A DNA stretch of 54,057 nucleotides from a virus. The notes below the pieces were generated by a model, which saw nothing but the letters and a program-made list of their open reading frames with translations, made no database searches and was not told where the DNA came from. A program made the position numbers and the translations under genes. The stretch is from positions 1 through 54,057 of the IMG/VR virus record IMGVR_UViG_3300048597_000056. One strand, 5' to 3'. This document shows, piece by piece, positions 1-54,057 of this stretch (position 1 is its first letter; each line of letters starts with the position of its first letter).

Positions 1-127
1 GCGCATGTTTTCCATGAATTTCGGCGCGCTGGCGCTGGTGTGGCTGGCGCTGCCGGCCGAGGCGCAGAGCACCGTGCTGCGCATGCTGCCGGGCATGACC
101 GAAGAGCGGCTCGCGGGCGGGTTGATC
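1..127. repeat. Terminal direct repeat (circle join), left copy
   Basis: Positions 1-127 are identical to 53931-54057. The repeat lies inside a small gene that reads correctly through the join. An exact 127-base overlap is what a k-mer assembler leaves when it linearises a circular or circularly permuted molecule, so this is most likely an assembly overlap and not a biological terminal repeat. Unit genome length would be 53,930 bp. Confidence 0.95.
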
Positions 128-2262: not shown

Positions 2263-2329
2263 GCCTAACCCCCGGTTCAAGCGGAGTCACCCGGCAGGCC
2301 GGGTGCCCCGCTTAACCGGAACGTTAGAA
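2263..2329 (+). other. Integron-type attC site 1
   Basis: Read on the plus strand: outer core GCCTAAC (2263-2269), inner arm CCGGTTCAAGCGG, a central hairpin CACCCGG/CCGGGTG, inner arm CCGCTTAACCGG, and outer core GTTAGAA (2323-2329). The inner arms pair perfectly apart from one extra C on the left arm. That single unpaired base is the hallmark of attC sites and fixes their polarity. The flanking outer cores fit RYYYAAC and GTTRRRY with one deviation. The stop codon of the transporter gene (TAA, 2326-2324) is embedded in the right core. Confidence 0.85.
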
Positions 2330-2815
2330 GGCGTCCGCTTCTCGTTGCACCGTGCGCGCCAGCAGTGCGGCCCACACGGCACCACCGAGCACCTTCGCCA
2401 CGAACTGCAGGGCAACGATGTGCGGCATCAGCACACCAAAGGCAAGCGTCGGGAAAAGCAGCGAGTCCACCGCAGCGCCTGCCACGTTCGAGCCGTTGGC
2501 ACGGTACAGCCAAGACCCGCGCAGCCGCGCGAACGTCGCCCAATCCACCAGGGACGCAGCGGTGAATGCCACGCTCGACGCCACGGCGATCATCCCCGCT
2601 GCCGGGTTCAGTGCGTAGGTCAGAAGCCCCGTGGAGGCGATCAGCGCTCCCATCTGCCAAGCGCGCAGTCGAACGTGCAGCCAGTCGCGCAGCGCCAGGT
2701 CCAACCCGATCAGCACGAAGGCATTGATCGGGCTCACCCACGGCCCGAAGTGGGCGATGGTCAGGTTCGCCACGGTCATCGCGGCGGCATAGATCAGGAT
2801 TGCAATGGTCAGCAT
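2324..2815 (-). CDS. VUT/YhhQ-family queuosine-precursor transporter
   Basis: The 163-residue product is almost entirely hydrophobic, with about five to six membrane segments. It has signatures I associate with the VUT family (PF02592, formerly DUF165; E. coli YhhQ): ANLTIAHFGPW near residue 16, a PINAFVLIGLDLALRDWLH stretch, and SNVAGAAVDSLLFPTLAFG. YhhQ homologues import 7-deazaguanine precursors (preQ0/preQ1) across the inner membrane. The start overlaps the end of the DpdA-like gene by 7 bp, so the two are coupled. The likely role is to feed the modification enzyme with a precursor the phage cannot make, since no queuosine synthesis genes are present here. The stop codon lies in the attC core. 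Confidence 0.8.
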   Translation of the reverse strand: MLTIAILIYAAAMTVANLTIAHFGPWVSPINAFVLIGLDLALRDWLHVRLRAWQMGALIASTGLLTYALNPAAGMIAVASSVAFTAASLVDWATFARLRGSWLYRANGSNVAGAAVDSLLFPTLAFGVLMPHIVALQFVAKVLGGAVWAALLARTVQREADAF

Positions 2816-3492
2816 AGAGCCTCTTGAATTGGCCGCTCAGTCCAAAGAGTCGGCGGGTTGGTGGAGTCGATACGCTGCGCCATGCACTCAGCGCAGGTTG
2901 TGGAACCGCGGTTTTTGAAGTTGCGGCCTACGTTCGTGGAATCCGCGCTCGCCAGCGGCCACGGGCCGGCAGCGTGCCCCAGCATGCGCAGGCCGTGCAG
3001 CCAGGGCACGCGGCCAAACTGCTGCACAAGCGCGTTAAATGTCTCGTCCATGCGCCCAGCCCACGCGGCCGAGCCAACCTGCCAGAACTCGCCGCTACTG
3101 CCGATGCACACGCGGGGCCAGTCGTTGCACAGGTCAAACAGGTATTCCAGCGGCAGGCCCAGGTGCCACACTGGCGCCCCGTACTCCTTGCGGTGCGGCC
3201 AGGTCGCCACCATCGCGCGCTGCTGTTCAACGCCGCCGCCTATCTCGTCTGGCACTACAGCCCAGTGCGGGTGCGCCAGATGCGGCTCGATCCAGCGGTA
3301 AAAGCCAGGCGCATCAAACGCTATGCCGCGCGTCTTCACGCTGAACGCGCCGTTGTCCAGCATCACACTTTGCCCAATTCTCAGGCACGTACTCAAGTCC
3401 TGCGGCGCAGCGTAGCTCACGCAGAACATGCGCCCCGCCATCGCGCTCAAGCTGGCGCGCGGCGTGATTGGGGTTCCGTGGTAGTGCAGCAC
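2809..3492 (-). CDS. dpdA: DpdA-like DNA guanine transglycosylase (TGT paralogue)
   Basis: A GTG start at 3492 has GGAAGGA seven bases upstream. The 227-residue product follows the tRNA-guanine transglycosylase layout: DNGAF (46-50, like the DSGGF substrate loop), PDE (81-83), GSSGE (131-135, like the GGLAVGE loop), HGLRMLG (166-172), and ADSTNVGRN (183-191), whose Asp184 is the candidate nucleophile. TGT and DpdA enzymes swap guanine for a 7-deazaguanine base; phage DpdA proteins do this in DNA. The C-terminal CAEC (200-203) may bind metal. It is shorter than true TGT and adjoins a precursor transporter, which favours DNA modification. The family call is from motif pattern only. Confidence 0.75.
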   Translation of the reverse strand: MLHYHGTPITPRASLSAMAGRMFCVSYAAPQDLSTCLRIGQSVMLDNGAFSVKTRGIAFDAPGFYRWIEPHLAHPHWAVVPDEIGGGVEQQRAMVATWPHRKEYGAPVWHLGLPLEYLFDLCNDWPRVCIGSSGEFWQVGSAAWAGRMDETFNALVQQFGRVPWLHGLRMLGHAAGPWPLASADSTNVGRNFKNRGSTTCAECMAQRIDSTNPPTLWTERPIQEALC

Positions 3493-3515
3493 TCAATCCT
3501 TCCGCTTCGGAAACA

Positions 3516-14261: not shown

Positions 14262-15335
14262 TCACGCCAGTTGCAGCGGCTTAGCGTTTGCGATGGCAGA
14301 CCACTCGCGCTGCGGGAGTTCCATGAGCCTATAGCCCAGGGTTTCCAGTTCCGTTGCGCGGTCGTAGCTAGGAACATCCTCGGCAGTGCGGGTCACTGCG
14401 TTGATGAGTGCGTACCGGCTAAGGTCGCCGCCAGTGATCAGGTGCCGCAGAACCGATTGACGTTCTCCGATCTGGAGTCCGAGAGTCGGGCCGAGAGCTT
14501 CTACGGCGGCATTGACGTCCCCGGTAATCTCCTGCTGGGTAGTCTCGGTCAGGCCATCGATGAACTTGCGGAACGACTGTTCGTTGAATGCGTTGGCAAG
14601 AACGTCCCGGACCTTGCGTAACACCAACTCATCCTCTAGGCGGCGGGTCGAGTCAGACAGGATGCCTTCGATATCCATGTCGATCTTGCGACCGATATGA
14701 GCCTTGCGCATCCCTGACTTGTCCCGCACCATCCCGTTGGTGCAGATCAGGAAATGGGCGAACGGGGTGATCGAGAGCGAACCAGACCCGACTTCGCTGT
14801 TGCGGATCATCACCCCTGCCTCGACCAGATCACCGACCCGGCGAGAGCCAGGAACTGGCATAACGATATCGTTGCTCACCGCCTTGATGTAGAGGCGCGA
14901 TTCGGTGATGGCGCTGGAGACTACCCGCAAGCCGCGCTGGTCGCTCAGGACGTTCAAGGCCACCTCGGCGACCTCCTTGTTGTCGATGCGTTGATAGCGA
15001 TCCGACAGCAGCGCGCGGACGTTTCCGTTCAGCGTGCGGATCATCCTGCGCTCGTTGCCCTTGTCGTCCATCCAGCGATTCACGTTCTTCGCCAGCAGGG
15101 GCTTGTCCTCAGTGCGAAGCCGGTCGTAGTACGCAGCAGGGATGCCGGTGTACTCCGCAATCTGGCGGTGCCCGCCATCAGTGGCAAGGCTCTGGTCCAA
15201 GGCGCCAGGGACGGTTATCGTTGCATCGTCGTTCATGCTGACCGAGTGGCTAGGAACCACGTAGTCAAACATCGCGGCTGCGTTTGCTTCCAGGGTGGCT
15301 GCGAGTTCGGTGAGGGATTTCATCTGTTGCTTCAT
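14262..15335 (-). CDS. DUF932 family protein
   Basis: The ATG at 15335 follows CGGAGAACCGC. The 357-residue product shows DUF932 (phage/plasmid-like protein) features: ALLSDRYQRIDNKEVAEVAL, SSAITESRLYIKAVS, GDLVEAGVMIRNSEVGSGSLSI and FLICTNGMV. DUF932 proteins occur widely on phages and plasmids; their biochemical role is not settled. As the first leftward gene, under the operator-controlled promoter at 15.4 kb, it is probably among the earliest expressed. The length fits the family. Confidence 0.8.
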   Translation of the reverse strand: MKQQMKSLTELAATLEANAAAMFDYVVPSHSVSMNDDATITVPGALDQSLATDGGHRQIAEYTGIPAAYYDRLRTEDKPLLAKNVNRWMDDKGNERRMIRTLNGNVRALLSDRYQRIDNKEVAEVALNVLSDQRGLRVVSSAITESRLYIKAVSNDIVMPVPGSRRVGDLVEAGVMIRNSEVGSGSLSITPFAHFLICTNGMVRDKSGMRKAHIGRKIDMDIEGILSDSTRRLEDELVLRKVRDVLANAFNEQSFRKFIDGLTETTQQEITGDVNAAVEALGPTLGLQIGERQSVLRHLITGGDLSRYALINAVTRTAEDVPSYDRATELETLGYRLMELPQREWSAIANAKPLQLA

Positions 15336-15392
15336 GCGGTTCTCCGGTGGGTTGCGTCTGCTCTGGTTCCCTGCAATCTGCAAGGTGCGTGA

Positions 15393-15421
15393 ATATTAGC
15401 CTAGACTAAGCACTATGTCTA
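15393..15421 (-). promoter_or_regulatory. Predicted leftward early promoter
   Basis: On the minus strand: -35 TAGACA (15421-15416), 17-bp spacer, -10 TAATAT (15398-15393). It lies upstream of the DUF932 gene. Operator sites 15396-15409 and 15421-15434 overlap the -10/spacer and the -35. Confidence 0.65.
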
Positions 15422-15434
15422 TAGCCTAGATTAA
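15396..15434. promoter_or_regulatory. Two 14-bp operator sites at the leftward promoter
   Basis: TTAGCCTAGACTAA (15396-15409) and ATAGCCTAGATTAA (15421-15434) have centres 25 bp apart, as at 14.2 kb. Together with the site at 15477 they flank the divergent promoters in the way lambdoid operators do. Confidence 0.8.
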
Positions 15435-15464
15435 ACTGTTACATCTTTTTTTCGGCCTCTGCTG

Positions 15465-15493
15465 TTGCCAGCATACTTTGCCTAGGCTAAGAT
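15465..15493 (+). promoter_or_regulatory. Predicted rightward promoter giving a leaderless mRNA
   Basis: -35 TTGCCA (15465-15470), 17-bp spacer, -10 TAAGAT (15488-15493). Transcription would start at about 15500, the A of the regulator's ATG, so that mRNA would have no leader. The operator at 15477-15490 overlaps the spacer and -10. Confidence 0.6.
15477..15490. promoter_or_regulatory. 14-bp operator site at the rightward promoter
   Basis: TTTGCCTAGGCTAA contains a perfect palindromic core GCCTAGGC. It overlaps the -10 region of the promoter for the regulator gene, predicting autorepression. Confidence 0.75.
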
Positions 15494-15499
15494 TGCGCC

Positions 15500-15703
15500 A
15501 TGACTAAAGATGACGTAGTTGCCTTCTTCGGCAATCAGGCAGAGGTCGCCAGGGTGCTAGAGATAAGCCAGCCCAGCGTGTGCAACTGGATCGAGGTGCC
15601 ACCCATGCGGCAGCTCGAACTGGAGCGCATCACCGAGGGCAAGCTGCGAGCCGGCCCGGAGTGCGCTCGCTACCGCGTCGGTACTCTAGTTAAGGCTCGC
15701 TGA
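15500..15703 (+). CDS. Cro-like HTH transcription regulator
   Basis: The 67-residue product begins MTKDDVVAFFGNQAEVARVL; residues about 12-34 (NQAEVARVLEISQPSVCNWIEVP) form a clear helix-turn-helix with recognition helix QPSVCNWIE. The basic region after it (MRQLELERITEGKLRA) fits Cro/YdaS-type regulators. It sits at the divergence point of the two transcription units with operators on both sides. No CI-type partner is seen. No ribosome binding site is visible because the mRNA is probably leaderless. Confidence 0.8.
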   Translation: MTKDDVVAFFGNQAEVARVLEISQPSVCNWIEVPPMRQLELERITEGKLRAGPECARYRVGTLVKAR

Positions 15704-15705
15704 CC

Positions 15706-15957
15706 ATGCGCGCCAGTTATCTAGTGCCCGGTAAGCTCTACTACAGCCCGCTCGGCAAGCTCTGCACGCTTCTGGCCCCGAGCGAAAACCGCAGTGCACA
15801 TCTGTTCGCGTACCTTACGAAAACCGGCAGGCCAAGCGAAGACGGATTCGCTATCAACGCAGACAACATCCGTGCAATCGCCGCGATGTGCGAGGCCGGA
15901 GATCATCCGCCGATGACGATTTCTGCCTACATCAAAGCGCGTGGGATCACAGCATGA
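15706..15957 (+). CDS. Hypothetical protein, 83 aa
   Basis: The product starts MRASYLVPGKLYYSPLGKLC two bases after the regulator's stop and is ATGA-coupled to the next gene. The N-terminal part looks like a small beta-barrel (VPGKLYYSPLGKLCTLLAPS). No motif is recognised. It may be an accessory protein of the early rightward operon. Confidence 0.6.
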   Translation: MRASYLVPGKLYYSPLGKLCTLLAPSENRSAHLFAYLTKTGRPSEDGFAINADNIRAIAAMCEAGDHPPMTISAYIKARGITA

Positions 15958-16205
15958 GCATCAAGTCCGTGCTCTATGACGTGGCCCGCCTGTGCGAGAA
16001 GTCGCAAGAGCGCTACGGAGACTTCGCCAGCACGCACGAAGCGCTCGGCGTGGCTCTTGAGGAATGGGACGAACTCCGCGCAGCGTTGCAGGCAAACGAT
16101 CTGCCACTAGTCGCATACGAGGCTATCGACTTGGCCGCAGTGCTTGTGCGGCTTGCTGATGCATGTGATAGGTCAATCGCGTTTAAGGAAAGGTCTGTTA
16201 AGTGA
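15954..16205 (+). CDS. MazG-like / dUTPase-fold-type nucleotide pyrophosphohydrolase, small
   Basis: I chose the ATG at 15954 (ATGA overlap). The 83-residue product has RYGDFASTHEALGVALEEWDELRAALQAND and EAIDLAAVLVRLADAC, the EE.(D/E)EL...D layout of all-alpha NTP pyrophosphatases such as MazG. The first acidic pair would bind Mg and the Asp of EAIDLAAV completes the site. It may hydrolyse non-canonical or excess nucleotides. It is short for a full MazG domain, so activity is uncertain. Confidence 0.6.
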   Translation: MSIKSVLYDVARLCEKSQERYGDFASTHEALGVALEEWDELRAALQANDLPLVAYEAIDLAAVLVRLADACDRSIAFKERSVK

Positions 16206-17566
16206 AGTACGAGGATTTCATCGAATCAAAGACGCAGGCCGGCGCTAACAGCGGGTTTGAACCTGTTTGGATGCCCGATTTCCTGTTCGATTTCCAGCGC
16301 GAGATTGTCGAGTGGGCCGTCCGCAAGGGCCGCGCGGCGGTGTTCGCTGACTGCGGACTCGGTAAGACGCCAATGGGACTGACATGGGCATCCAACGTGG
16401 CCCGCAAGACCGGCAAGCCGGTGCTGTACTTGACCCCGCTGGCGGTCGCATCGCAGACCGTGCGCGAGGCGGCGAAGTTTGGCATCGAGGCGGTGCAATC
16501 GCGCGACGGCGCCAGCAACGGGCACATCATCGTTGCCAATTACGAGCGTCTGCACTATTTCAATCATGCCGACTTCGGTGGCGTGGTGTGCGACGAGTCG
16601 AGCATCCTCAAGAGCTACGCCGGCCAGCGCCGCGGCGAGATCACCACATTCATGCGCAAGGTGCCGTACCGGCTGCTGCAGACCGCGACAGCCGCGCCGA
16701 ATGACTACATCGAGTTAGGCACCAGCTCCGAAGCGCTTGGGTACATGGGCCACATGGACATGCTCAATAGGTTCTTCAAGAATGACCTGAACAACAGCGC
16801 GCAGGGGCGCATTGGTGGCGAGGTCATCAAGTTCCGGCTGAAGGGTCACGCCGAAGGACCGTTCTGGCGCTGGGTGTGCTCATGGGCGCGCGCCATCCGC
16901 CGGCCGTCTGACCTGGGCTTCGATGACAGCAACTTCATCCTTCCGCCGTTAAACGAGGGCGAGCATCTTGTAGATGCGCAATCGCTGGCGGACGGCATGC
17001 TGTTCGCCATGCCTGCCGTTGGCCTGAAGGAACAGCGCGAGGAACGTCGGCGCACGGTAGAGGAACGATGCGAGCGCGTTGCTGAACTGGTCAACCACAC
17101 CGGACAGCCGGCGCTTGTCTGGTGCCACTTGAACGACGAAGGCGATATGCTGGAGCGCATGATTCCAGACGCTGTGCAAGTCAGCGGTGCCGATAGCGAC
17201 GACAAGAAGGAACTGCACCTAGAAGCCTTCGCCGAAGGGCGCGCCCGCGTGCTCATCACGAAGCCGAAGATAGGCGCGTGGGGGTTGAACTTCCAGCACT
17301 GCAACCATGTGACCTTCTTCCCGTCACACAGCTTCGAGCAGTATTACCAGGCGGTGCGACGCTGCTGGCGCTTCGGGCAAACGCGCCCGGTAAAGGTGGA
17401 CATCATCACCACCGAAGGCGAGCGCGGAGTGATGCGCAACTTGCAGCGCAAGTCCGACCAGGCCGACGAAATGTTTTCCCGCCTTGTGGAGGAGATGACC
17501 AACGCGCTGTCAATCGAACGCGCGAACAACATGACCAAGAAACTGGAGATCCCATCATGGCTGTAA
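16202..17566 (+). CDS. SNF2-like DEAD/DEAH-box helicase
   Basis: A GTG start at 16202 overlaps the upstream stop. The 454-residue product has Walker A ADCGLGKT (49-56), a DEAH-like box CDESS (130-134), TATAAPNDY (motif III), and GAWGLNFQHC...QAVRRCWRFGQTRPV (motifs V and VI). The domain order matches SNF2-type ATPases that translocate on double-stranded DNA. It overlaps the DNA methyltransferase gene by 10 bp, so the two probably act together, for example in modifying replicating phage DNA. It is short, with little beyond the two RecA lobes. Confidence 0.85.
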   Translation: MKYEDFIESKTQAGANSGFEPVWMPDFLFDFQREIVEWAVRKGRAAVFADCGLGKTPMGLTWASNVARKTGKPVLYLTPLAVASQTVREAAKFGIEAVQSRDGASNGHIIVANYERLHYFNHADFGGVVCDESSILKSYAGQRRGEITTFMRKVPYRLLQTATAAPNDYIELGTSSEALGYMGHMDMLNRFFKNDLNNSAQGRIGGEVIKFRLKGHAEGPFWRWVCSWARAIRRPSDLGFDDSNFILPPLNEGEHLVDAQSLADGMLFAMPAVGLKEQREERRRTVEERCERVAELVNHTGQPALVWCHLNDEGDMLERMIPDAVQVSGADSDDKKELHLEAFAEGRARVLITKPKIGAWGLNFQHCNHVTFFPSHSFEQYYQAVRRCWRFGQTRPVKVDIITTEGERGVMRNLQRKSDQADEMFSRLVEEMTNALSIERANNMTKKLEIPSWL

Positions 17567-20793: not shown

Positions 20794-21199
20794 GAAGGTC
20801 AAGAAACGCACGATGGCTGGACCTAGAGCGGTGTGGATGATCGCAAACGGGTCAGCACCGAAGGGGGTTGTGTATCGATGTTGCGCTCGGGACTGCGTGA
20901 ACCCTAAGCACATGCGGGTTGCAAAGGACCGTGAAGCGATGACCGCTGCCGTAGCCAAGGCGGGAAAGTTCAGATCGCCAAAGATGCACGCGGCAAGGCT
21001 TATTAACCTCAGACACGCCAGGAAAGCGCAAGGGATCGTAGACACACCGGACCATCATGTCATGGCAATTCGAGCCTCCAGCGAGCCACTGGCCGTTTTG
21101 GCTGAGCGGTTCGGGATATCTGACCATGCGGTGAGCGAGATTAGGCGAGGAAAGTCTCGCCTAGGGGTGGCGATGAACAGCGAGAGGGATGCAGCGTGA
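20672..21199 (+). CDS. HNH-type homing-endonuclease-like protein
   Basis: A GTG start at 20672 follows AGAGGT. The 175-residue product has GCWHWQGATRKDG, RAVWMIANGSAPKG, and YRCCARDCVNPKHMRV, which matches phage HNH proteins (GC..W.G....G......R..W....G..P.G...R.C....CVNP.H). The C-terminal LAVLAERFGISDHAVSEIRRGKS is an HTH that would contact DNA. It may be a free-standing homing endonuclease. The first His of the HNH triad is replaced by Tyr (VVYRCC), so nuclease activity is not assured. Confidence 0.7.
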   Translation: MAATIKDLYKRSIVDKYSGCWHWQGATRKDGLPSIWTLDYEKVKKRTMAGPRAVWMIANGSAPKGVVYRCCARDCVNPKHMRVAKDREAMTAAVAKAGKFRSPKMHAARLINLRHARKAQGIVDTPDHHVMAIRASSEPLAVLAERFGISDHAVSEIRRGKSRLGVAMNSERDAA

Positions 21200-21795
21200 G
21201 AGTGCTGGTCGCTTGCGAGTATTCAGGCGTGGTGCGTCAGGCTTTCCGTGCGCGCGGGCATGATGCTTGGTCTTGCGACTTGCTGCCCGCAGAAGACGGT
21301 CCCTGCTTGCGCGCCTATCACATGCAAGGGGACGTGCTCGGCATCCTTTGGCAAGGATGGGACATGATGATTTCGCATCCGCCTTGCACACACCTGTCTG
21401 TCAGTGGCGCACGACATTTCGATGAAAAGCGCGCAGATGGGCGGCAGCAGAAGGCAATCGAATTCTTCCTAGAACTTGCGCGAGCACCAATCCCACGCAT
21501 CGCCATCGAGAACCCGGTTTGCATCATGTCCACGGTATGGCGAGAGCCTGACCAGATCATCCAGCCGTGGCAGTTCGGGCATGGTGAGACAAAGGCTACG
21601 TGCCTGTGGCTGAAGGGACTTCCGCCACTGGTGCCGACCAACATCGTGCATGGCAGGGAACCACGCGTCCACCGTATGCCACCAGGTCCCGACAGGTGGA
21701 AAGAGCGTAGCAGAACCTACGCAGGAATCGCCACAGCAATGGCCGACCAATGGGGTGCGTATAGTGATCTGGTCACGCAGATGGAAGTTGCGTAA
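21196..21795 (+). CDS. C5-cytosine-methyltransferase-like protein
   Basis: The 199-residue product starts MRVLVACEYSGVVRQAFRAR, a SAM-binding-like opening, with HPPCTHLS (61-68, catalytic PC loop), and AIENPV (103-108, the ENV-equivalent loop). This is the compact Dcm-like family common in phages; it lacks an obvious target-recognition domain. It may methylate cytosine or act as a companion of other base modifications. It overlaps the HNH gene start-to-stop and the ninG gene (TAATG). Confidence 0.75.
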   Translation: MRVLVACEYSGVVRQAFRARGHDAWSCDLLPAEDGPCLRAYHMQGDVLGILWQGWDMMISHPPCTHLSVSGARHFDEKRADGRQQKAIEFFLELARAPIPRIAIENPVCIMSTVWREPDQIIQPWQFGHGETKATCLWLKGLPPLVPTNIVHGREPRVHRMPPGPDRWKERSRTYAGIATAMADQWGAYSDLVTQMEVA

Positions 21796-22310
21796 TGGAA
21801 TGCCGTGTCTGCTCAAAGCCATTCGAGCCAGCAAGGCCGCTTCAGTCGGTTTGCTCGCTTCGATGTGCAAAGCAGGTTCCTAAGGCGGCACGCAAGGTAG
21901 AGCGTGAGCGAACAAAGGCACGCAAAGAAGCCGCAAAGCCACGGTCCAAGTGGCTCCAAGAGGCGCAACAAGCGTTCAACGCATGGATAAGGTCAAGGGA
22001 CGCAGGATTGGGCTGCATTAGCTGTGGCACGCATGTAGGCAAGGCCAATGCTGGGCACTATCTCTCGACAGGAGCAAGGCCGGAACTCAGGTTCAATGAA
22101 CGCAACGTTCACCTCCAGTGTGAGCGGTGCAACACTTACCTGCACGGCAATCTGATTGCCTACCGGATCAACCTGATCGACCGGATCGGACTAGCCGCAG
22201 TGGAAATCCTTGAAGGCCCGCACCCTGCGCAGAAGTGGACGGTTGACGAGTTGAAGGATATCAAGGCTATATATCGCGAAAAGCTGAAACCTGTCCATAA
22301 CGATGGTTGA
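21795..22310 (+). CDS. ninG: NinG-like recombination protein
   Basis: The ATG at 21795 overlaps the upstream stop (TAATG). The 171-residue product has an N-terminal zinc knuckle (CRVCSKPFEPARPLQSVCSLRCA), a basic helix (KVERERTKARKEAAKPRSKW), and GCISCGTHVGKANAGHYLS...NVHLQCERCNTYLHGN, the diagnostic part of lambda NinG (PF05766). NinG is linked to phage recombination and contains an HNH-like fold. Length and motif order fit the family. Confidence 0.9.
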   Translation: MECRVCSKPFEPARPLQSVCSLRCAKQVPKAARKVERERTKARKEAAKPRSKWLQEAQQAFNAWIRSRDAGLGCISCGTHVGKANAGHYLSTGARPELRFNERNVHLQCERCNTYLHGNLIAYRINLIDRIGLAAVEILEGPHPAQKWTVDELKDIKAIYREKLKPVHNDG

Positions 22311-22319
22311 GGTCAACAA

Positions 22320-22562
22320 GTGAGCGATAAGTGTCCAGCCTGCGAGCAATCCAGAGTCAATCGTTGGTGTGGCTACTATCGCGCTGACTGCCTGGAGTGC
22401 AGCGCAAGGGCTCTATCATCTTCGCCGGATTACTTCGAGTCTCGAAAGGTCGGAGCGATGACAGGCGCCTACAGGGCCGCGCTGTTCACCGTCTTCGGCG
22501 AGCAGTGGGAAGCTGGGCATATCAAAGTGAAGGCTTGGGCTGAAACAACACCCATCATATAA
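22320..22562 (+). CDS. Small zinc-binding-like protein, 80 aa
   Basis: A GTG start at 22320. The product starts MSDKCPACEQSRVNRWCGYY; CPAC...C...C.EC suggests one zinc site. The second half (MTGAYRAALFTVFGEQWEAGHIKVKAW) is helical. Function unknown. Confidence 0.6.
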   Translation: MSDKCPACEQSRVNRWCGYYRADCLECSARALSSSPDYFESRKVGAMTGAYRAALFTVFGEQWEAGHIKVKAWAETTPII

Positions 22563-22581
22563 TGTTAGGACGCACTGACCT

Positions 22582-23451
22582 ATGAAACGCGACGCTATCT
22601 CCCCATTAGAAAAGGCTAAGGCGTCCTTTTTGCCCGTCGATAGCCTGATCCCGTATGCCCGCAATGCCCGCACGCACAGCGATGCGCAGATCGCCCAGCT
22701 CGCAGCGAGCATGGTCGAGTTCGGATTCACCAACCCGGTGATCGCTGACGAGCGCAGCATCATCGCCGGGCATGGGCGGGTGCTGGCAGCGCGCAAGCTC
22801 TACGCATCCGGGAAGCGGATCAAGCTCCCTGGGGGCGAGGAACTTCCAGAGGGCACCGTCCCTGTCATCGACTGCACCGGGTGGACAGAGGCGCAGCGGA
22901 AAGCCTACGTCATCGCGGACAACAAGCTCGCGATGAACGCGGATTGGGATTGGGAGATGCTCGCCGTCGAGGTTGACGAACTGCGGGACTTGGACTTCAG
23001 CCTGCCGATTCTCGGCTTTACGTCCGAGGAGTTGAATGAACTGATTGGGACGCCGAATACTGGTCCGGATGGAAGCCTGAGCGAATACAGTTCCAAGATC
23101 GAGGCGCCTACCTACACCCCGAAGGGTGACAGGCCGGAGATTTCCGCGCTATTCAACCGCGAGAAAATGGACTCGCTGCTAAAGAAGATCGATGAATCAG
23201 AAGCGACTTATGCAGAAAAGCAGTTCATGACGATGGCTGCGTGCAGGCACGTCGTATTCGACTACCACCAGATCGCAGAGTTTTACTGCCACGCCTCGCC
23301 AGAAGTGCAGTCGCTCATGGAAGATTCAGCCCTAGTGATAATCGACTTCGACAAGGCGATTGAGCTTGGATATGTCCAACTGTCCAAGAAACTAGCCGAT
23401 ATCTACAGTGAAACCCAGGACGTAGAGGACGAGGAGGACGTAGATGAATGA
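22582..23451 (+). CDS. ParB-domain protein with a novel C-terminal domain
   Basis: The 289-residue product has a ParB/Srx-type N-terminal domain: VDSLIPYARNARTHSDAQI (19-37), GFTNPVIADERSIIAGHGRVLAARKL (48-73), and AYVIADNKLAMNADWDW. Phage versions are often joined to a DNA methylase; here a different region follows (EISALFNREKMDSLLKKIDE... ending in an acidic VEDEEDVDE tail). It overlaps the glycosyltransferase gene by 8 bp. In phage base-hypermodification clusters described computationally, ParB-type proteins co-occur with TET-associated glycosyltransferases. The reaction is unknown. Confidence 0.75.
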   Translation: MKRDAISPLEKAKASFLPVDSLIPYARNARTHSDAQIAQLAASMVEFGFTNPVIADERSIIAGHGRVLAARKLYASGKRIKLPGGEELPEGTVPVIDCTGWTEAQRKAYVIADNKLAMNADWDWEMLAVEVDELRDLDFSLPILGFTSEELNELIGTPNTGPDGSLSEYSSKIEAPTYTPKGDRPEISALFNREKMDSLLKKIDESEATYAEKQFMTMAACRHVVFDYHQIAEFYCHASPEVQSLMEDSALVIIDFDKAIELGYVQLSKKLADIYSETQDVEDEEDVDE

Positions 23452-24292
23452 TGACTTCTGCGCCTTCATCCTTACGCACGGAAGGCCGGATCGTGTGCAT
23501 ACGATGGACAGTCTGCGCAAGCACGGCTACACCGGGCGGGTCATCATACTGATCGACAATGAGGATAAGACTGCTGACGAGTACCACAAGCGTTTCGGCT
23601 CTATGGTGCATGTCTTTGACAAAGCGGAGATTGCCAGCAGGATCGATGAGGGCGATAACTTCAACGACAGGCGGGCGATTATCTATGCCCGCAACGCTTG
23701 TTTCGAGGTAGCCGAAAAGCTAGGCATTACGTACTTCGTGCAGCTTGATGATGACTACATGGCATTCCGCCACAAGCGTGACGAAAAGCAGGAATACATC
23801 GACGGTCGCGATATCCACGATCTAGACGCAGTATTCAGCGCAATGCTTGAGTATTACAAGCTAATCCCTGCTGCATCGATTGCCATGGCGCAGACTGGAG
23901 ACTTTCCTGGCGGTAAGGAATGCACAAGTCGCAATAAGCACAGCCGCAAAGCCATGAATAGCTTTATATGCTCAACGCTTAGGCCATTCAAGTTTGTAGG
24001 ACGCATCAACGAGGACGTAAACACATACACAAGCGCAGCAACGCGCGGTGCATTCTTCATGACCGTCAACGATATCGTGTTGCAGCAAAAGCAAACGCAA
24101 TCAAATGCCGGTGGAATGACCGAGATGTATATGGACAGCGGTACATACGTCAAATCGTTCTATACGGTTATGTATCACCCCTCTGGTGCGCGCGTGATGT
24201 ATAGTCCAGCCGTCTCGCGGTTGCACCATCAAGTCCGTTGGAGGCACACTGTCCCATGCATCCTGCCTGAGCATTACCGCAAAGCCGCATAA
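23444..24292 (+). CDS. TET-associated-type DNA-base glycosyltransferase (TAGT-like)
   Basis: The 282-residue product has a GT-A opening (FCAFILTHGRPDRVHTMDSL), an IILIDNEDKTADEY segment, and LDDDY (101-105) as nucleotide-sugar/metal site. It also has RGAFFMTVNDIVLQQKQTQS and NAGGMTEMYMDSGTYVKSFY, which I associate with the TAGT family (TET/JBP-associated glycosyltransferase). TAGT proteins are proposed to glycosylate hydroxymethylated DNA bases. No TET/JBP oxygenase or hydroxymethylase is encoded here, so the acceptor base is unknown. The start overlaps the ParB-domain gene. Confidence 0.7.
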   Translation: MNDDFCAFILTHGRPDRVHTMDSLRKHGYTGRVIILIDNEDKTADEYHKRFGSMVHVFDKAEIASRIDEGDNFNDRRAIIYARNACFEVAEKLGITYFVQLDDDYMAFRHKRDEKQEYIDGRDIHDLDAVFSAMLEYYKLIPAASIAMAQTGDFPGGKECTSRNKHSRKAMNSFICSTLRPFKFVGRINEDVNTYTSAATRGAFFMTVNDIVLQQKQTQSNAGGMTEMYMDSGTYVKSFYTVMYHPSGARVMYSPAVSRLHHQVRWRHTVPCILPEHYRKAA

Positions 24293-53898: not shown

Positions 53899-54057
53899 AT
53901 GAAGCTGATCCCCGAATGGCGCCGCGCGTGGCGCATGTTTTCCATGAATTTCGGCGCGCTGGCGCTGGTGTGGCTGGCGCTGCCGGCCGAGGCGCAGAGC
54001 ACCGTGCTGCGCATGCTGCCGGGCATGACCGAAGAGCGGCTCGCGGGCGGGTTGATC
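53899..54057 (+). CDS. Holin-like small membrane protein, N-terminal part (continues at position 2)
   Basis: The ATG at 53899 has AGGAGG seven bases upstream. The frame MKLIPEWRRAWRMFSMNFGA runs off the contig end and continues in frame at position 2, finishing at 178, to give about 69 residues. See the entry at 2-178 for the membrane segments and family argument. Confidence 0.8.
   Translation, partial: MKLIPEWRRAWRMFSMNFGALALVWLALPAEAQSTVLRMLPGMTEERLAGGLI
53931..54057. repeat. Terminal direct repeat (circle join), right copy
   Basis: Identical over 127 bases to positions 1-127, so the contig is a closed circle or a circularly permuted genome of 53,930 bp. The true packaging site and physical ends cannot be read from this sequence. 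Confidence 0.95.

Follow-up and report, generated by a model that had tools for sequence, protein, structure and literature searches.

A predicted two-gene, salvage-fed cassette for 7-deazaguanine DNA modification in phages: a DpdA-type enzyme paired with a VUT-family membrane protein

A dpdA-like gene and an overlapping gene for a VUT/YhhQ-family membrane protein probably form a two-gene, mobile, salvage-fed cassette for 7-deazaguanine modification of phage DNA, a prediction made from sequence comparison and by analogy with characterized phages. The pair was found in the window analysed here, the whole 54,057-nucleotide stretch of the virus record IMGVR_UViG_3300048597_000056. The earlier note on this DNA had proposed a minimal enzyme-plus-importer unit free of biosynthesis genes, and that proposal is supported by reciprocal linkage of the two genes across phages, by swapping of partners, by mobility, and by host context. 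Coordinates are given in Table 1.

Table 1. Features of the window discussed in the text
Feature	Position	Strand	Remark
Left copy of exact 127-bp direct terminal repeat	1..127	.	contig complete/circular
VUT/YhhQ (QPTR, COG1738)-family membrane protein, 163 aa, ATG start	2324..2815	(-)	predicted 7-deazaguanine-precursor importer
dpdA stop / VUT start overlap, 7 bases	2809..2815	(-)	
dpdA-like gene, 227 aa, GTG start	2809..3492	(-)	predicted phage DpdA-family base-exchange enzyme
Shine-Dalgarno-like AAGAGG for VUT, within dpdA	2820..2825	(-)	direct sequence reading
Asp184 codon (ADST), candidate nucleophile	2941..2943	(-)	invariant in 87 homologues
Asp82 codon (PD)	3247..3249	(-)	invariant in 87 homologues
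Asp46 codon (DNGAF), candidate catalytic Asp	3355..3357	(-)	invariant in 87 homologues
Shine-Dalgarno-like GGAAGGA 5' of dpdA	3497..3503	(-)	direct sequence reading
PHROG_757 methyltransferase homologue	21196-21795		same PHROG adjoins VUT in mEp021
NinG	21795-22310		
ParB/methyltransferase-like protein	22582-23451		
TET-associated glycosyltransferase	23444-24292		Pfam TAGT E 9e-37
Right copy of 127-bp direct terminal repeat	53931..54057	.	

Both open reading frames occur exactly where the earlier note had placed them. The dpdA start cannot lie farther upstream, because a TGA immediately precedes the GTG, and the VUT ATG sits within the 3' end of dpdA. Given this overlap and the Shine-Dalgarno-like sites of both genes, translation of VUT is likely coupled to that of dpdA, to judge from the sequence; the 7-base overlap recurs in loci L007, L008, L009, L017, L027, L034, L040, L042 and L096. 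Chance does not account for the two reading frames, since they match PHROG_887 and Pfam family Vut_1, respectively, are under purifying selection (dN/dS about 0.1 for DpdA and 0.13-0.33 for VUT), and recur in dozens of contigs.

By profile comparison and structural modelling, the 227-residue enzyme is a relative of phage DpdA. It matches PHROG_887, "queuine tRNA-ribosyltransferase", with an E-value of 7.7e-44. In the comparison with DpdA that the earlier note had recommended, its profile matched the DpdA of phage CAjan over 156 columns (hhalign probability 96%, E 3.3e-9), aligning DNGAF with LDSGAF and ADST with SCDSS; CAjan dpdA is genetically required for the dPreQ0 found in CAjan virion DNA (PMC6884629). 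The companion comparison with bacterial tRNA-guanine transglycosylase (TGT) came out negative, as a profile built from nine bacterial TGTs did not match (hhalign probability 0.2%). No Pfam family matches the enzyme, and the protein is without the conserved C-terminal region present in the TGT alignment. Structure prediction, also recommended, gave a confident AlphaFold2 model (pLDDT 95) and a divided answer: the viral fold library BFVD returned many phage proteins annotated as queuine tRNA-ribosyltransferase, with E-values down to 1.9e-8 and TM-scores of about 0.55-0.68, but the PDB fold search listed generic barrels only, no TGT among the listed matches and none at E<=0.001. A PDB sequence search with the DpdA and VUT profiles produced nothing meaningful. 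Direct membership in the canonical bacterial TGT family (PF01702) was rejected, as neither Pfam nor hhalign nor the PDB fold search supported it.

The TGT identity originally claimed for the enzyme must therefore be restated: no bacterial TGT profile or PDB fold matches it directly, but a link runs through phage DpdA, and placement in the TGT superfamily would follow from that link together with the HHpred result published for the DpdA of Pantoea phage MED16 (PMC8306585), which belongs to the same family as the window DpdA and is 36% identical to it. Likewise, the statement that every TGT landmark is kept applies, in an alignment of 87 homologues, to D46, N47-F50, P81, D82, G131, S132 and D184, all invariant or nearly so, but not to E83 and E135, which are not conserved to that degree. 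Ten positions, Asp46, Asp82, His110, Gly131, His166, Arg169, Pro179, Ser182, Asp184 and Ser185, are found in every row of that alignment.

The 163-residue partner matches Pfam model Vut_1 (PF02592) with 43.5 bits against a curated cut-off of 27.2 (E 5.5e-11), and its AlphaFold2 model has six helices and a pLDDT of 95. Cellular YhhQ aligns to the phage VUT profile with an hhalign probability of 98% (E 1e-14), and residues kept across the phage members, N17, R43-D44, A79-S80, D91 and D117, are profile-aligned with those of cellular YhhQ. Equivalog-level NCBIfam models for the queuosine precursor transporter are missed, with 20.4 bits against 50.95 for TIGR00697 and 20.8 against 252 for NF008406, so that the window protein is best described, at the level of sequence models, as a family member rather than an equivalog. 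Substrate varies within the VUT/YhhQ/QPTR family and is hard to predict from sequence: E. coli YhhQ moves preQ0 and preQ1, and queuine is moved in Chlamydia (PMC11130926). In PHROGs, the phage VUT family is PHROG_4899, which carries no name.

An exact 127-bp direct terminal repeat at both ends of the contig backs the description of this genome as complete. Profile searches of the complete contig detected no FolE (PF01227), QueD (PF01242), QueC (PF06508) or QueF (PF14489), and found in the window neither a radical-SAM protein (PF04055), QueE included, nor a canonical TGT (PF01702). The same searches were positive in control genomes, confirming the reported absence of FolE, QueD, QueE, QueC and QueF. 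Nor is there a full 7-deazaguanine DNA pathway of the type known from 9g, CAjan and Vid5, as no FolE, QueD, QueE, QueC or Gat-QueC accompanies dpdA anywhere in the complete contig. Separately, a second possible DNA-hypermodification block occupies positions 21196-24292 of the window (Table 1); no TET/JBP was seen among the window ORFs scanned.

Linkage of the two genes was examined among the nearest relatives of each query, near-copies included, and the fractions are accordingly not population rates. A VUT gene lies within 600 bases of dpdA in 67 of the 80 viral contigs with the nearest DpdA relatives, and near dpdA in 34 of 44 viral loci after dereplication at 85% identity. Starting instead from the window VUT, all of the 80 nearest viral contigs have DpdA adjoining VUT, 78 of them within 20 bases. 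Across all groups examined, each of the 82 DpdA-VUT pairs shares a strand, and in 65 the two genes overlap or are at most 20 bases apart. In bacterial genomes, VUT accompanies 10 of 80 DpdA relatives, and for the Enterobacterial SfI-type DpdA the count is zero in 80 loci, which means that the importer is not essential to the DpdA enzyme family. No conserved third gene completes the cassette: once the VUT cluster and the spurious reading frames that overlap DpdA are set aside, no neighbour family occurred in more than 22 of 174 loci.

The idea that phage VUT always travels with DpdA was rejected. Among 21 annotated phage records with a tblastn match to VUT, 14 also match DpdA; the remaining seven are mEp021-like, with VUT beside a methyltransferase of PHROG_757, and a further set of 27 viral contigs with this arrangement is without DpdA. 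In phage mEp021 itself (L336 3459-4726) and in L379-L405, the VUT gene overlaps the methyltransferase gene and no DpdA is found; the VUT of such loci may supply something else. Several individual loci depart from the usual layout. In two distant phages (L003 6678-6938 and L002 5515-5760), the gene for a small protein matching PHROG_9572 separates DpdA from VUT. In L082 (5001-6092), DpdA has a C-terminal extension of about 135 residues in a contig with no VUT neighbour; a DpdA-VUT fusion was considered for this case and rejected, as the extension is unrelated to VUT. Caulobacter phage DMCA (L006 5705-6726) shows a further reduced arrangement, in which DpdA is immediately preceded by a short QueD-like protein, scoring at the Pfam cut-off for PTPS, and VUT is absent.

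The partners do not seem simply to have been inherited together. On the DpdA tree, VUT presence and side require 19 changes, a number that falls when poorly supported branches are collapsed, and the order of the two genes has switched several times, near relatives sharing an inherited order. The DpdA-linked VUT proteins fall into three supported clades, separate from cellular YhhQ, in a quickly built tree that has some long branches. Members of one clade adjoin both the window-type DpdA and a second DpdA-like family, PHROG_15826, whose members are shorter and are annotated as DpdA-like in actinophages, although PHROGs lists the family as "unknown function". The PHROG_15826 gene overlaps VUT in L366 (3423-4049), L368, L369 (3458-4054), L370, L374 and L377. 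The same functional pair appears to have been re-formed from different partners, a pattern for which common descent by itself is a poor explanation.

Comparison of whole contigs indicates that the DpdA-VUT pair is a recurrent mobile module. The closest DpdA relative, at 92-93% identity, is encoded in L007, and the DNA that blastn finds in common between that contig and the window consists of the cassette and one methyltransferase stretch of 66% identity; with the L009 contig, the cassette is the sole similar stretch. Both cassette genes are missing from the first 42 kb, which include the non-structural arm, of MW202621 (L357), the record closest to the window in structural genes. That arm of MW202621.1 encodes a deoxycytidylate deaminase and a "pyrimidine hmase" at 14617-16310, which suggests that this phage carries a different DNA modification.

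The host of the window phage was not revealed by its relatives: megablast of 25 kb of the window matched nothing beyond 280 bases of an uncultured spring phage, and relatives of its terminase and capsid were uncultured or diverse and gave no host assignment. Bacterial genomes that carry DpdA relatives give a broader view. Full-length QueC is encoded in 6 of 10 genomes with a VUT-bearing cassette and in 64 of 66 without VUT, so that QueC is lacking in 4 of 10 versus 2 of 66 (Fisher p=0.002), a comparison of few and phylogenetically confounded genomes. In the four QueC-less hosts, which are phylogenetically clustered MAGs, QueF is missing as well at the family cut-off, TGT is found in all and QueA in three; retention of TGT and QueA with neither QueC nor QueF fits the profile of a precursor salvager. 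QueC absence is a lineage trait in the Devosia-type and Rhizobium-type genera concerned, since it is missing in 33 of 41 and 4 of 4 genomes, respectively. One bacterial locus, L355 (G040:C24:472500-480000), contains QueC, a weak TGT-like match and VUT within about 6 kb.

The pair resembles several known systems in part. Group 3 "DpdA-only" phages, such as Salmonella 7-11 and Mycobacterium Orion (PMC6884629), also have DpdA without preQ0/G+ biosynthesis genes, and their precursor necessarily comes from the host or outside, but no dedicated importer has been linked to them; Hutinet et al. 2019 found YhhQ homologues uncorrelated with any phage group (PMC6884629). MED16 has a same-family DpdA, no Que genes, and dADG in its virion DNA (PMC8306585), but its DpdA has no VUT neighbour. 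Viral preQ0/preQ1 transporters tied to 7-deazaguanine DNA pathways are known from Pantoea phage Vid5 (PMC6266253), Enterobacter phage EC151 (PMC8310023) and haloviruses HCTV-1/16 (PMC8651126), where, in contrast to the cassette, they come with a biosynthesis cluster that is complete or almost so; the Vid5-like transporter belongs to the cellular YhhQ type, from which the clades of cassette VUTs are distinct. In bacteria, QPTR-bTGT fusions and salvage pairs similarly couple a base-exchange enzyme to a queuosine-precursor transporter, but act on tRNA (PMC11130926, PMC11570991). Same-strand DpdA and VUT genes, adjacent or with one small gene between, are present in public records for Pseudanabaena phage Pam5, Rhizobium phage RHph_N3_2, Acinetobacter phage AB3P2 and Pectobacterium phage PEAT2, which differ in host, gene order and VUT clade; no discussion of these pairs was found in the literature. 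The novelty claimed for the stand-alone pair is accordingly narrower than first put. Its parts have precedents, in DpdA-only phages and in preQ0 transporters within full pathways; what is new here is the minimal, mobile, partner-swapping DpdA-importer pair, of which we found no description in the literature consulted, although an earlier one may exist.

We propose that VUT, in the host inner membrane, would import a 7-deazaguanine in free-base form, preQ0 being the likeliest and preQ1 possible, and that the DpdA-type enzyme, translated from the same message by coupling, would remove guanine at selected sites of phage DNA through an Asp-bound intermediate, with Asp184 the candidate nucleophile and Asp46 the candidate acid/base. 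DpdA would then insert the imported base into the DNA, probably blunting host restriction. We infer that the enzyme is active and that it acts on DNA and not on tRNA, by analogy with CAjan (PMC6884629) and MED16 (PMC8306585), as well as which base is imported and that the phage gains protection. That protective value is doubtful, because modification in DpdA-only phages is very low, 0.02-0.13% of G (PMC6884629, PMC8306585), and MED16 DNA, with dADG at ~0.13% of G from a lone DpdA, is cut normally by most enzymes, Dam-methylation-sensitive ones excepted (PMC8306585).

Such tiny levels of DNA modification would also suit a reduced phage TGT whose substrate is tRNA, of the host or of the phage, with the importer raising the supply of queuosine precursor and so keeping translation efficient. 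TGT ancestry and the service of QPTR-bTGT fusions to tRNA queuosine in bacteria (PMC11130926) speak for this account, which we nevertheless consider unlikely: hosts keep their own canonical TGT, in 26 of 26 genomes examined; the enzyme resembles the DNA-acting CAjan DpdA rather than bacterial TGT and lacks the C-terminal region conserved there; and 7-deazaguanine is found in the DNA of MED16, whose DpdA is of the same family and which has no Que genes (PMC8306585). A shade less probable again is that the host provides the base through a preQ0 pathway of its own, with VUT only topping up the supply or carrying a different purine or vitamin. QueC is indeed encoded by the hosts of nearly all VUT-less DpdA loci and by 6 of the 10 with VUT, sequence is a poor guide to what a VUT protein carries (PMC11130926), and mEp021-like phages have VUT without DpdA; against this, the reciprocal linkage in 80 of 80 contigs, the swapping of partners, and the enrichment of VUT in QueC-less hosts point to dedicated substrate supply.

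That the genes are two independently useful morons, brought together by chance or common descent, draws on the inherited gene order common to near relatives, but we regard it as very improbable. Partner swapping argues strongly against it, as do the changes of order, the three VUT clades and two DpdA-like families, the tight same-strand packing, and transfer between unrelated genomes. Within the preferred account of a salvage-fed DNA-modification cassette, a more far-reaching version, in which the base is made by neither phage nor host but scavenged from neighbours, so that modification depends on the surrounding community, is offered only tentatively and seems rather doubtful. On that version, hosts lacking both QueC and QueF might receive preQ1, or some other salvaged form, in place of preQ0.

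Where the largest group of phages with DpdA obtains its precursor had not been known, and for part of that group the DpdA-importer pair provides a concrete, testable answer. It suggests a nucleobase-salvage role for phage VUT proteins of PHROG_4899 and a kit of just two genes with which deazaguanines could be put into DNA, and it would mark those phages in which the chemistry of the DNA would hinge on what the environment supplies.
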